Origin: a virus
Virus record (IMG/VR): IMGVR_UViG_3300032331_000070
Coordinates: 1-23,262 of that record
Length of the DNA stretch: 23,262 bases
Direction: 5' to 3' (one strand)
This document shows positions 13,313 through 17,519 of the stretch, piece after piece; position 1 is the stretch's first letter; every line of letters starts with the position of its first letter. The notes below the pieces were generated by a model that was given only the letters and a program-made list of their open reading frames with translations, was not told the origin of the DNA and did no database searches. The position numbers and the translations under genes were made by a program.

Positions 13313-13597
13313 ATGCCACATTTTAAAGATTCAGAAAATAAAATTTATTGGCTTGACGAGGGCGATGATCCTGCGGTCTGGTTGCCTCAATGCACGCCAA
13401 TAACAGAAGCAGAAAAGGATTCAATCCTAGCTGCGCAACAAGCCGCTGCTGAGGCTATGTTGACCTATACGCAGAAACGTGTAGGTGAATATCCGCCCAT
13501 CGGTGACCAACTTGATGCACTGTTTAAGGCCGGAGTATTCCCTGCTGACATGGCGGCACGCATACAAGCAGTCAAGGATAAGTACCCCAAGGCGTAA
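13313..13597 (+). CDS. Tail fibre chaperone-like protein
   Basis: 94 aa, starting one base after the fibre stop. It reads MPHFKDSENKIYWLDEGDD, WLPQCTPITEAEKDSILAAQQ and TYTQKRVGEYPPIGDQLDALFKAG, and ends RIQAVKDKYPKA. The EYPPIGDQLDALFK...KYPK block is common in small phage proteins after fibre genes and is shared with the 10912 protein, while the N-terminal halves differ. It likely helps fold or attach the 11341 fibre. Confidence 0.8.
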   Translation: MPHFKDSENKIYWLDEGDDPAVWLPQCTPITEAEKDSILAAQQAAAEAMLTYTQKRVGEYPPIGDQLDALFKAGVFPADMAARIQAVKDKYPKA

Positions 13598-13603
13598 AAA
13601 ATT
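13589..13603 (+). promoter_or_regulatory. Ribosome site and ATT start of the 13601 gene
   Basis: AAGG (13589-13592) is followed by eight bases and ATT (13601-13603). The same layout occurs at 11229-11244 (AAAGG, eight bases, ATT). The upstream stop TAA (13595-13597) lies between the site and the start. No common start codon occurs in this frame until ATG 13694, which has no ribosome site and would remove the conserved IDPI end. Confidence 0.55.
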
Positions 13604-14266
13604 GATCCGATCTCCATCATCTTTGCCGCCAATGCCTGCGTCGCCGCAATTAAACAGGGATGCAAGCTATACAAAGACGCCAAAACGTCTTTCATGGAGG
13701 TCAAGAAGACTGTTGATGAAGTTGTTTCAGATGCCAAGGCTGTCAGAAGTTTCTGGCAAAAGCTATTTGGAGCAGCGCCCACCTCAAGCCCCAAGCCTGT
13801 GGCGAAAAAGGAAGCCTACGTTGCCGTTGACGAAACCCAAGTCATGTCAGACATCGTTACCCAGCTTACAAAACTTTTCAGGCTTGAGGAGCAGCTTGCT
13901 GACCACATAAGGGAAGAGGAAGAGAAGAGCAAGACAGTTTACGACCCTGATGCCAACTTGATGGAAGCTGCGTTGCAACGTGTATTGGCGCAGCAGCAGA
14001 TGGCGGATTTGATAGTGACGGTAAGGGAAACAATGGTGTACCAATCCCCGCCTGAGTTGGGTGCGCTGTACAGCAAAGTGTTTGAGATGCGAGATGTCAT
14101 CAAAGCAGAACAGGACAAGGCAAGGAAGAAACGGGATGATGAGTCATGGCAACGCAGGGAGGAAGAGCGGCTTCTAAAGGAAAGGCAAGCGTATCTGCTG
14201 GCGACTTTCCTATTCCTCCTATATATGTGGTTGCTCCTCGGCCTCTTGTACAGGATTGGGAAGTAG
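13601..14266 (+). CDS. Coiled-coil membrane protein at head of lysis cassette, probable ATT start
   Basis: 221 aa if read from ATT 13601 (190 aa from ATG 13694). The N-terminus IDPISIIFAANACVAAIKQGCKLYKDAKTSF matches small phage proteins that begin MDPI with a helix followed by K.YKD. The 31 codons before ATG 13694 are also conserved at 11242, so they are coding. The middle is acidic and helical, residues about 130-195 are a charged coiled coil (EQDKARKKRDDESWQRREEERLL), and 196-217 form a membrane helix (AYLLATFLFLLYMWLLLGLL). The small protein, holin and endolysin follow at once. A lysis or regulator role is plausible; not proved. Confidence 0.65.
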   Translation: MDPISIIFAANACVAAIKQGCKLYKDAKTSFMEVKKTVDEVVSDAKAVRSFWQKLFGAAPTSSPKPVAKKEAYVAVDETQVMSDIVTQLTKLFRLEEQLADHIREEEEKSKTVYDPDANLMEAALQRVLAQQQMADLIVTVRETMVYQSPPELGALYSKVFEMRDVIKAEQDKARKKRDDESWQRREEERLLKERQAYLLATFLFLLYMWLLLGLLYRIGK

Positions 14267-14268
14267 TT

Positions 14269-14451
14269 ATGGGTTGGATCGCGGCGTGTGTATTGGTTGT
14301 GTTGATGTTGCCCTTGCTTGGGATGTTGTACATGGATGTGCTGCAAACCAAAAAGGAAGCCCAAGCGCAGATTGAGAAGATGGAAAAAGTGCGTAGACAA
14401 GTTGAAAAGGAAAAACGAGATGATTCCAATAGTCGCAACTCTCCTCAGTAG
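14269..14451 (+). CDS. Small membrane protein with coiled coil (inner-spanin-like layout)
   Basis: 60 aa: MGWIAACVLVVLMLPLLGML is one membrane helix, followed by a charged coiled coil (KKEAQAQIEKMEKVRRQVEKEKRDD). The start is two bases after the upstream stop. An earlier in-frame ATG at 14146 would add 41 residues inside the preceding gene; it has no ribosome site. A short N-terminal helix plus a coiled coil is the layout of inner-membrane spanins, but it is very short and no lipoprotein partner is visible. It overlaps the holin start by 32 bases. Lysis partner is the likely role. Confidence 0.65.
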   Translation: MGWIAACVLVVLMLPLLGMLYMDVLQTKKEAQAQIEKMEKVRRQVEKEKRDDSNSRNSPQ

Positions 14452-14929
14452 CCTAGCCGAGAATGGCCTTGGGTTACTGTCGTCTGCCATCCAAGCCAAA
14501 GGCAAGGAAGTGGTGGAGAACACCCTTGGTGTGAAGATTCCCGATGCCCCTACCGCAGAAGATGTAAGCAAGCTGCGCCAGCTTCAGTTTGAGCATGAGG
14601 AAAAGCTCCTTGAACTGGGTATTGAGAAAGCCAAGCTGGAACTGGAAGAGATGAAGGTTTTGGCGGCGGCAGCACAAAACGATGCCGACAACATCACAGA
14701 CCGCTGGGAAGCAGATATGTCCAGCGACTCTTGGCTGTCCAAAAACATTCGCCCCATGAGTCTGATTGCCATCTTTTTGGGGTATTTCCTGTTTGCCATG
14801 ATGAGTGCCTTTGGCTACAACGCCAACGAGTCGTATGTCACCCTTCTGGGTAACTGGGGTATGCTTATCATGGGTGCTTATTTTGGTGGTCGCACAGTTG
14901 AAAAACTGGCAGAAATGAGGAAGAAATGA
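14420..14929 (+). CDS. Holin, GTA 3TM type
   Basis: 169 aa from ATG 14420, inside the end of the 14269 gene. A helical N-terminal half (TAEDVSKLRQLQFEHEEKLLELGIEKAKLELEE) leads to RWEADMSSDSWLSKNIRP (95-112), then two membrane helices, about 113-133 (MSLIAIFLGYFLFAMMSAFGY) and 139-158 (VTLLGNWGMLIMGAYFGG), with a basic tail. The RW.ADM.SDSWLSKN.RP block before the helices is the signature of the holin_3TM family of gene transfer agents and phages. It should form the membrane pore for the M15 endolysin that follows. Confidence 0.9.
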   Translation: MIPIVATLLSSLAENGLGLLSSAIQAKGKEVVENTLGVKIPDAPTAEDVSKLRQLQFEHEEKLLELGIEKAKLELEEMKVLAAAAQNDADNITDRWEADMSSDSWLSKNIRPMSLIAIFLGYFLFAMMSAFGYNANESYVTLLGNWGMLIMGAYFGGRTVEKLAEMRKK

Positions 14930-15267
14930 GCCTTAACCAAGAACAAGCCGCATTCCTGCTGGACATGTGCAAGCTAATCCAATATGCTACAGACCAAGGG
15001 TTTGTGGTGACTGGCGGGGAACTTGCCCGTACACCTGAACAGCAAGCAATATACTTCAAGACGGGTCGATCCAAGACAATGAACTCCATCCATCTAAAGC
15101 GGTGCGCCATAGATTTGAATTTTTTCAAGGATGGAAAGATCATTTGGGACAAAGCAGTCCTTGCGCCTCTGGGTGCGTATTGGGAGACCTTGCATCCAAA
15201 GAACCGTTGGGGCGGCAACTTCAAGTCCCTTGTTGATTGCCCTCATTTTGAGCGCAATGTAGGTTAA
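14926..15267 (+). CDS. Endolysin, M15 peptidase (L-Ala-D-Glu / D-Ala-D-Ala type)
   Basis: 113 aa, ATGA-coupled to the holin. The M15 fold is shown by the zinc motif SIHLKRCAIDLNFF, with H56 and D63, and the third ligand H107 in VDCPHFE, with D104 as the likely catalytic acid. RTPEQQAIYFKTGRSKT and RWGGNFKSL are further family blocks. It cuts peptide bonds in peptidoglycan. No signal peptide is present, so it needs the holin to cross the membrane. Length is usual for phage M15 endolysins of this kind. It cleaves another bond than the GH108 domain of the 20916 protein. Confidence 0.9.
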   Translation: MSLNQEQAAFLLDMCKLIQYATDQGFVVTGGELARTPEQQAIYFKTGRSKTMNSIHLKRCAIDLNFFKDGKIIWDKAVLAPLGAYWETLHPKNRWGGNFKSLVDCPHFERNVG

Positions 15268-15269
15268 TC

Positions 15270-17519
15270 ATGCCCTTACAAAAACTTCAATTCCGTCCCG
15301 GCATAAATAGAGAGAACACCTCTTACGCCAATGAGGGCGGGTACTACGCCGCAAATAAAATTCGGTTTCGCTCAGGTCAGCCGGAGAAAGTTGGCGGATG
15401 GACTAAGGACACTGGGACAAACCTATCCGCGCTAAAGCCAACCACTGGCACGCTCTGGGGAGTGTGCCGTGCGTTATGGAACTGGCTGAACCTTTCAGGA
15501 TACAACCTGTTGTCCCTTGGCACAAACTTTAAATACTACATTCAAAGCGGCACAAACGGTTTCTATTACGACGTTACCCCATTGCGCACCACCACAACAG
15601 CAGGGGAAGTAACTTTTGCAGCGTCCAACGGGTCTACGACAATTACTGTGAGTGATGCGGGGCACGGCGCTCAGACAGGTGACTTTGTTACTTACAGCGG
15701 CGCGGTGTCTTTGGGCGGCAATATCACAGCCACCATACTTAATGCAGAGTTTCAAATCACCTACGTAAGCTCCAACCAGTACACCATCACATCTTCAGTT
15801 GCAGCAACCGCAGGGGACTCCGGCAATGGCGGCGCGTCCGTTGTTGGCGCATACCAAATCACAACAGGTAATGCAATTTATACCCAGAACGTAGGTTGGG
15901 GTGCGGGTACTTGGGGTGGTGTTGTTTTTGGCACGGCGACTACTGCGGTATCGGGTGGCACGTTATCTTCATCAAACACCACAGTCACAGTAACCTCAAC
16001 AACTGGGTTTTCTACGCCGACTGGTACGTTGCTGATCGACCAAGAAACAATTACATATACAGGCACAACAGGCACAACATTTACAGGCTGTACTCGAGGT
16101 GTTAGCGGTACAGGCTCCGGCGCGGCTACTACCCATGCAAATGGCGCAGCCGTTGTGCAGTCCACCAGCTTTACTGGTTGGGGTGTTTCGGCTCCTGCTG
16201 GTCAGGGTATTGGCCAACAACTCCGCACATGGAGCCAGTCAAACTTTGGCGAGGACTTGGTCTTTAATCCCCGTGGCGGCGCTTTGTATTACTGGGCAAA
16301 CTCTGCGTCAGCAAATACATTCAACCGAGGTCAGTATCTTGGCCCAAGCACCGCTGTTGTTACCAAATCAGGAACAATTACCACCGACGCATACTGCCCA
16401 ACAGTTGCCAACTTTGTTACGGTGTCTGATGCCTCAAGATTTGTGTTGGTGTTTGGGTGTAACGACTATGGCAGTACTGTCCAAGACCCATTGCTGATTC
16501 GATGGTCTGACCAAGAGAGTTTTGCGACATGGTATCCGGCTATTACAAACCAAGCAGGCAGCTATCGCTTGAGCCACGGCTCACAAATCATTACCGCCAT
16601 GCAGACTCGCCAAGAGATCTTGGTGTTGACCGACTCTGCCATTTATTCAATGCAGTACCTTGGCCCACCCTATGTCTGGAGCTTCCAGATTATGGGCGAC
16701 AACATATCTATTGCTGGGCCAAATGCGATAGCAACCGCTAACAACATCACGTACTGGATGGGTACGGACAAGTTCTATATGTACTCAGGCCGCGTTCAAA
16801 CGCTGCCATCCACCCTGCGCGAGTACGTCTACAACGACATCAATCTTGACCAGTCTTTCCAGTTTATGGCCGGAACCAATGAAGGCTACAACGAAGTGTG
16901 GTGGCAATACTGTTCTTCTGGCTCAAATGTGATTGACCGCTATGTGATTTACAACCACTTGGATGATGTTTGGTATTACGGCGACTGGGTTAACTACACC
17001 GGCACAGCGTACCAAGGGCGCACCGCATGGCTTGACAGTGCATTACGCGCATACCCGATGGCAACAACCTACGGTGTGGCTGGCGGCAGCACAAACACGC
17101 TACTTGTGTACCATGAAAACGGGGTGGACGATGGCACAGTTAACCCAGCAGTTCCTATCGTGGCGCAGGTCACATCTTCTGACTTTGACATTGGTGACGG
17201 GCATAACTTTGGGTTTGTCTGGAGGCTGATCCCCGACTTAACTTTTGATGGCTCAACCGTAAACCAGCCAATAGCTATGTTCACAGTACTCCCCCGCGCT
17301 AACTCAGGTGCGCCGTATGGGAACTCAAACAACCCCGATGTCGTCAGTGCGCAAAACTACCAGAACCAAAGAAACTACGCTGTTCAGCAGTTCACTCAAC
17401 AGGTCTACGTGCGGATTCGCGGTCGCCAGATGGCTTTCAAGGTAAGTTCAGACGAGCTTGGAGTTCAGTGGCAGTTGGGCGTACCCCGCATAGATATTCG
17501 TCCTGACGGTAGACGCTGA
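15270..17519 (+). CDS. Tail nozzle / tail tubular protein B-like
   Basis: 749 aa. The N-terminus LQKLQFRPGINRENTSYANEGGYYAANKIRFRSGQPEKVGGW is the pattern of podovirus nozzle proteins and DNA stabilisation proteins. Residues about 108-198 contain the insert VTFAASNGSTTITVSDAGHGAQTGD...; residues about 225-296 carry a second insert, VTVTSTTGFSTPTGTLLIDQETITYTG...TRGVSGTG, like that of the 3180 protein. The rest is a beta-propeller-like run (VLVFGCNDYGS, LLIRWSDQESFATWYP, QEILVLTDSAIYSMQY, YWMGTDKFYMYSG). It probably forms the tail nozzle below the adaptor. Fold call is inferred. Confidence 0.85.
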   Translation: MPLQKLQFRPGINRENTSYANEGGYYAANKIRFRSGQPEKVGGWTKDTGTNLSALKPTTGTLWGVCRALWNWLNLSGYNLLSLGTNFKYYIQSGTNGFYYDVTPLRTTTTAGEVTFAASNGSTTITVSDAGHGAQTGDFVTYSGAVSLGGNITATILNAEFQITYVSSNQYTITSSVAATAGDSGNGGASVVGAYQITTGNAIYTQNVGWGAGTWGGVVFGTATTAVSGGTLSSSNTTVTVTSTTGFSTPTGTLLIDQETITYTGTTGTTFTGCTRGVSGTGSGAATTHANGAAVVQSTSFTGWGVSAPAGQGIGQQLRTWSQSNFGEDLVFNPRGGALYYWANSASANTFNRGQYLGPSTAVVTKSGTITTDAYCPTVANFVTVSDASRFVLVFGCNDYGSTVQDPLLIRWSDQESFATWYPAITNQAGSYRLSHGSQIITAMQTRQEILVLTDSAIYSMQYLGPPYVWSFQIMGDNISIAGPNAIATANNITYWMGTDKFYMYSGRVQTLPSTLREYVYNDINLDQSFQFMAGTNEGYNEVWWQYCSSGSNVIDRYVIYNHLDDVWYYGDWVNYTGTAYQGRTAWLDSALRAYPMATTYGVAGGSTNTLLVYHENGVDDGTVNPAVPIVAQVTSSDFDIGDGHNFGFVWRLIPDLTFDGSTVNQPIAMFTVLPRANSGAPYGNSNNPDVVSAQNYQNQRNYAVQQFTQQVYVRIRGRQMAFKVSSDELGVQWQLGVPRIDIRPDGRR

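Follow-up and report, generated by a model that had tools for sequence, protein, structure and literature searches.

The four bases ATTG at positions 13601..13604 of a 23,262-base IMG/VR virus record (the window, meaning the whole stretch analysed) probably constitute a shared dual start site, and the presence of a gene overlapping in the +1 frame would explain why the gene that begins here uses ATT. In the mechanism that we propose, a single ribosome-binding region would serve two start codons overlapping by two bases: AUU would open a 221-aa protein in frame 0, and UUG would open an ORF of about 102 codons in the +1 frame, ending at a conserved TAA. The family has toggled many times between ATT and [A/G/T]TGTG, the first-codon choices with which both starts are kept. 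Comparison among relatives shows that the gene starts with ATT or GTG only, that frame 0 is translated from codon 2 and that the +1 frame is under selection. From these comparisons we infer that UUG is the start of the +1 ORF in the ATT loci, and AUG its start in the loci reading ATGTG; selection on both frames suggests that both products are made. Initiation in the +1 frame would be the stronger of the two.

All features of the locus lie on the plus strand. The upstream ORF of 94 aa (13313..13597), which matches PHROG families of unknown function, ends with a TAA (13595-13597) that is in frame with the ATT; AAA and then the ATT itself (13601-13603) follow. A Shine-Dalgarno-like AAGG (13589..13592), weak for its class, lies 8 nt 5′ of the ATT, exactly where the first-pass annotation had placed it. 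The ATT opens the frame-0 gene (13601..14266; TAG at 14264-14266), whose 221-aa product is mostly helical with a hydrophobic C-terminus. The TTG one base further on (13602-13604), singled out by the census of loci and the enumeration of possible start contexts described below, would open the overlapping +1 ORF of 102 codons (13602..13910; TAA at 13908-13910). This ORF is recognized by stop avoidance, a conserved stop and its composition; its product is basic and includes a motif, SLWRKR (13794..13811).

Downstream, a 101-aa ORF (14146..14451) occupies the +2 frame relative to the 221-aa gene across 121 nt and starts with ATG in 127 of 130 loci; its product is likely a membrane protein, as judged by a hydrophobic stretch. 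It is followed by a holin (14420..14929; phrog_3427, E 4e-14) and an M15-type peptidase, the endolysin (14926..15267; phrog_465, E 7e-17; PF13539, E 4.5e-8). The lysis-cassette setting assigned earlier is correct, since these two genes, together with the small hydrophobic protein, lie downstream of the 221-aa gene. Synonymous changes in codons 183-217 of the latter avoid +2-frame stops (1 vs 10.7 expected). Given this avoidance and the conserved ATG at 14146, the 221-aa gene is overlapped at both ends. Within the 14146 ORF, the codon at 14269-14271 is GTG in 70, ATG in 54 and TTG in 6 loci (130 of 135 in all); this resembles a kept internal start rather than a kept residue, and the ORF may yield a long and a short form of the protein.

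The relatives came from four scans of viral contigs and from two GenBank records. The scans contributed the best 80 of 393, at least 468, at least 483 and 221 confirmed relatives, respectively, and the census is a sample. With L081, the window's own copy, set aside, there were 288 sequences (287 loci and the window). From these we excluded 81 duplicates over the interval -150..+300, and L091, L104 and L149, which are cut ahead of the start; 204 loci were left. In these distinct viral loci, codon 1 was ATT in 132, GTG in 68 and irregular in 4. ATG, TTG, CTG, ATC and ATA were found at the aligned codon 1 in none of the 204 sampled loci; the expectation that relatives would begin MDPI with an ATG did not hold when the alignment was made. 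In three irregular loci (L082, CTA; L107, CTT; L095, GTT), the codon immediately upstream in the frame is GTG. The reading frame of the fourth, L144, is disturbed: at about 1190-1230 it reads ATGGATCCG and then shows a 1-nt frame disturbance, either a sequencing error or a genuine frame change.

The neighbouring genes at the same loci start with ATG: besides the 14146 ORF, the holin (64/64), the peptidase (57/57) and the gene at 15270 (37/39). Chance or sequencing error as the source of the ATT was considered and is ruled out by the number of distinct loci that share it. A conserved AUU start, the feature looked for as IF3-type, is thus present in 132 of the 204 loci. From the last in-frame stop to the ATT, no ATG, GTG, TTG or CTG occurs in 127 of the 132 ATT loci; of the other five, four have a CTG in that stretch and one has no stop in the sequence examined.

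The next question is where frame-0 translation begins. In 73 independent sequence pairs, codons 2-30 showed 17 nonsynonymous vs 453 synonymous differences, and D2 and P3 were invariant in both sets aligned. Since these codons are under strong protein-level selection, translation must start at or ahead of codon 2. Rechecked coordinates confirmed that the frame of 13601-14266 has no ATG, GTG, TTG or CTG ahead of the ATG at 13694 (codon 32). Initiation there, which annotation programs would call because it is the first ordinary start in frame, and which would suit a relative of 191 aa found in the viral structure library, is untenable in view of the coding signature of codons 2-30 and the invariant D2 and P3; we regard it as extremely improbable. 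The alternative that readthrough of the TAA at 13595 joins the upstream ORF to the 221-aa frame is suggested by the window, in which that stop is in frame with the ATT. It is not general: the upstream ORF can be read in 128 ATT loci, and in 55 of them its stop lies in a different frame from the ATT. We give readthrough practically no chance. The first-pass annotation took ATT for the start codon of the 221-aa protein. The census and the selection on codons 2-30 strongly support this proposal, and the comparisons make it very probable that the frame-0 protein begins at the ATT. Common gene callers accept ATG, GTG and TTG; for this reason, they would shorten the 221-aa protein by 31 residues and overlook the overlapping gene. 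In the two distant GenBank relatives, MW202462 (L082) and MW202484 (L083), the annotated CDS starts only around codon 8-9 in the protein alignment, and the deposited N-termini are probably too short.

We then consider the +1 frame. The codon alignment covers 198 of the 200 ATT or GTG loci. The +1 frame stays open for a median of 103 codons vs about 30 in synonymous shuffles. Within the first 100 codons there were 143 +1 stops vs 718 expected, 1428 +2 stops vs 1406 expected and, as a control, 1901 vs 1906 stops in 161 downstream ORFs, which show no deficit. After thinning to 14 sequences of less than 60% identity, 5 +1 stops remained vs 38. When only the codon usage of the first 100 codons was used for the expectation, the +1 deficit was smaller but persisted: 92 vs 176 in 90 sequences (90% thinning), 40 vs 61 in 25 sequences (70%) and 5 vs 22 in the 14 sequences; under this usage the +2 frame also had a mild deficit (591 vs 679 in the 90-sequence set).

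In the cleanest test, close relatives were compared and the synonymous changes that create or abolish a stop were counted. In codons 2-100, 15 such changes touched a +1 stop vs 85.1 expected, and 192 touched a +2 stop vs 184.4; in codons 105-180, the +1 count was 54 vs 56.4, without a deficit. The deficit in codons 2-100 was seen in each subset: close (11 vs 63.1), far (4 vs 21.8), ATT-only (15 vs 57.9) and GTG-only (3 vs 28.6). The +1 frame also has a conserved end. Codon 103 is ATA in 76 of 79 close loci, whereas only 100 of the 650 Ile codons at other positions of the gene are ATA. Where codon 104 begins with A, the ATA at codon 103 creates a +1 TAA. Stop avoidance, the conserved stop and the conserved motif together indicate that the second frame is open and selected beyond the demands of frame 0.

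Could the +1 frame be kept open merely as a decoy or as ribosome cover of the message, the peptide itself being irrelevant? Stops are avoided although most +1 residues in codons 2-60 vary freely: substitutions that are synonymous in frame 0 and change the +1 residue occur there at the frequency of the control region, and amino-acid conservation throughout the +1 product was not found. Competing starts, moreover, reduce yield in the experiments described in excerpts of Kohl et al. (PMC9841429). Against this stand the conserved +1 stop, the retention of SLWRKR through changes that are synonymous in the +1 frame, and a synonymous constraint in the close family, where frame-0 synonymous variation is lower at codons 62-81; the far family has no such drop. 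The motif persists through the frame-0 changes V/L, K/Q and K/A, and its pattern is present in 135 of 198 loci. Of the 135 close loci, 118 have it; of the 63 distant ones, 17 do, and one of these, L124, carries it at another site. We consider a peptide-independent role a minor possibility.

The start contexts themselves also speak for the shared dual start. A start codon overlapping codon 1 in a different frame is present as TTG (+1) in 132 of 132 ATT loci and as ATG (-2) in 66 of 68 GTG loci: ATTGAY holds a TTG in the +1 frame, and ATGTGGAY holds an ATG in the same frame. We enumerated all five-base contexts with Asp as residue 2, allowing CTG, ATT, ATC and ATA as weak frame-0 starts and ATG, GTG or TTG as overlapping +1 starts. 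The only solutions were ATT, with any two preceding bases, and GTG after AT, GT or TT; ATG as the first codon is excluded by this result. Given the Asp (GAY) at residue 2 of the 221-aa protein, only ATT and [A/G/T]TGTG keep both starts, and these two solutions are the two observed states, the GTG loci reading ATGTG in 66 of 68 cases. Two loci, L082 and L152, have no ATG, GTG or TTG at either overlapping +1 position, and in both the +1 frame is closed before codon 20; in L155, which has GTG at -2, it is closed as well, at codon 16.

The first-pass annotation had inferred that ATT limits synthesis of a membrane-active protein. In this reading, ATT would be retained for weak initiation alone, possibly under IF3 control, to keep the protein scarce. 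ATT is indeed conserved, the strong ATG never occurs at codon 1, and IF3-repressed non-canonical starts are known from infC and sigR, as described in excerpts of PMC5472188. Pure selection for a weak start is disfavoured, however, since TTG, CTG, ATC and ATA would then be expected and the bases ahead of GTG would be free; instead, the other weak starts are absent, AT precedes GTG in 66 of 68 loci and +1 stops are selected against. The dual start fits better, because the observed states match the enumeration and the loci without a +1 start have a closed +1 frame. As the sole explanation, throttling is unlikely. It is incomplete, but it may still arise as a side effect or act as an additional reason: in 17 of the 132 ATT loci the +1 frame closes early (in 9 ahead of codon 20, in another 8 ahead of codon 70), and ATT is kept nonetheless. 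In addition, 14 ATT loci have another NTG in the +1 frame 6 nt upstream of the TTG, which would make the TTG unnecessary there, and still keep ATT; some in-frame NTG lies within 45 nt upstream in 57 of 132. Since both the 17 and the 14 loci keep ATT, the need for TTG is perhaps not its sole reason, and a weak frame-0 start may be wanted besides the dual start.

A further alternative is that initiation occurs solely at UUG (or AUG in the ATGTG loci), followed by an immediate one-base backward slip into frame 0, with AUU never serving as a start. UUG or AUG is found in nearly all loci, and sequence comparison gives the same expectation for this scheme as for initiation at AUU. Inspection by eye revealed no slippery heptamer, and any slip must be immediate, since five ATT loci reach a +1 stop after three codons; we judge this route improbable.

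The two start types differ in their upstream architecture. Shine-Dalgarno pairing in the ATT loci has a median of -5.15 kcal/mol, with 83% at -4 or better; the window, at -3.5 kcal/mol, ranks 112th of 132 and is weak for its class. Pairing in the GTG loci is no better than at random upstream positions (medians both -1.9; 15% vs 21%). The upstream ORF can be read in 64 GTG loci, and in 52 of these its stop begins 4 to 10 nt 5′ of the GTG, which makes it plausible that these starts are coupled with upstream translation. On a tree of 147 rows, built with codon 1 left out, the start type changes at least 30 times; well-supported branches provide 15 independent pairs. The Shine-Dalgarno motif switches together with the start type (10.7 the same way vs 0.1 the opposite way in independent pairs). 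The sequence 5′ of the ATT or GTG varies widely among relatives while the gene itself is conserved, as if upstream tail-region genes had been exchanged here.

As for the products, the 221-aa protein had no convincing match in Pfam, PHROG, PDB sequences or fold comparison, and no lysis family could be assigned to it. Its predicted model is all-helical, with a mean pLDDT of 74, and the proteins whose folds match it well are unnamed ones from phages. No prophage relative carrying it was confirmed in the genome_contigs collection; the GenBank matches were three environmental records only, of which MW202462 and MW202484 were examined and found to have a CDS started at a later codon. The +1 product is predicted to be disordered (pLDDT 61, pTM 0.18), and it had no match in Pfam, PHROG or PDB. 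It is basic, with 19 K+R and 3 D+E in its 102 residues in the window, and +1 products from 176 loci have medians of 19% K+R and 3% D+E. Both ORFs lie beside the holin and endolysin genes, so a lysis-related pair is our first guess; that the two products cooperate in lysis, perhaps one as effector and the other as modulator, is a guess only. In the lambda Rz/Rz1 spanins, one gene is nested in the +1 frame of a lysis gene and the starts do not overlap. The present locus resembles them in having a second gene nested in the +1 frame in a lysis setting and differs from them in that its starts overlap and that inspection of the +1 product by eye showed neither a signal peptide nor a lipobox.

Overlapping starts have precedents. 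According to excerpts of Kohl et al. 2022 (PMC9841429), AUGUG and GUGUG sites, for example in pqiA, tamA and narQ, can launch both frames in E. coli, as found by experiment; the balance between the frames is set by Shine-Dalgarno spacing, and yield falls. The present loci share with those sites two overlapping starts, two frames and one initiation region, and 66 of the 68 GTG loci carry the very ATGTG motif. They differ in that AUUG (AUU/UUG) is the site found in 132 of 204 loci, the window included, AUGUG being confined to GTG loci; in that the GTG loci have no Shine-Dalgarno motif, unlike the E. coli sites as these excerpts describe them; and in that the second frame is about 100 codons long and under selection, compared with the 10 and 15 aa given there for the tamA and pqiA peptides. 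The string AUUG is absent from that paper. The same excerpts cite Thermus rnpA-rpmH and lambda S as earlier cases (PMC9841429). The Thermus overlap (AUGGAUG) likewise yields two proteins from two frames with starts a few bases apart, but has two separate AUGs and is not from a phage; lambda S, a dual-start holin, likewise has two close starts in a lysis gene, but these share a frame and produce a single protein in two forms.

AUU itself also has parallels. IF3-repressed non-canonical starts are described for E. coli infC and Streptomyces sigR in excerpts of PMC5472188, and pcnB is reported to be a further case. In the staphylococcal cvfC1, the AUU start is conserved and accompanied by an extended Shine-Dalgarno motif (excerpts of PMC13009471). 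As in infC and sigR, a non-canonical start here opens a functional gene, and in infC it is conserved as such (PMC5472188); those sites are not described as dual-frame starts in these excerpts. Our search of the open-licence PMC literature for AUU/ATT starts in phages, AUUG starts or dual-coding lysis starts found no such arrangement among the papers listed. AUGUG sites were thus already known in E. coli, and AUUG appears to be new.

On balance we lean, if only slightly, towards a wider reading of these comparisons: AUUG would be a new natural dual-frame start, at which one Shine-Dalgarno sequence serves two lysis-linked proteins in a fixed ratio and which has been exchanged at least 30 times with AUGUG as its functional equivalent. 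ATT would then be the sign of a hidden gene, not of a throttle, and second genes may likewise be hidden in other phage genes that seem startless. The overlapping gene would be missed by gene callers in a family with hundreds of metagenome relatives. The family also suggests a search rule: look for conserved ATT starts in which the TTG begins a +1 frame poor in stops. The family, which toggles between ATT and ATGTG and never uses ATG, is a natural experiment on how start codons are chosen, how far initiation depends on the Shine-Dalgarno motif and how one initiation site is shared between two frames.
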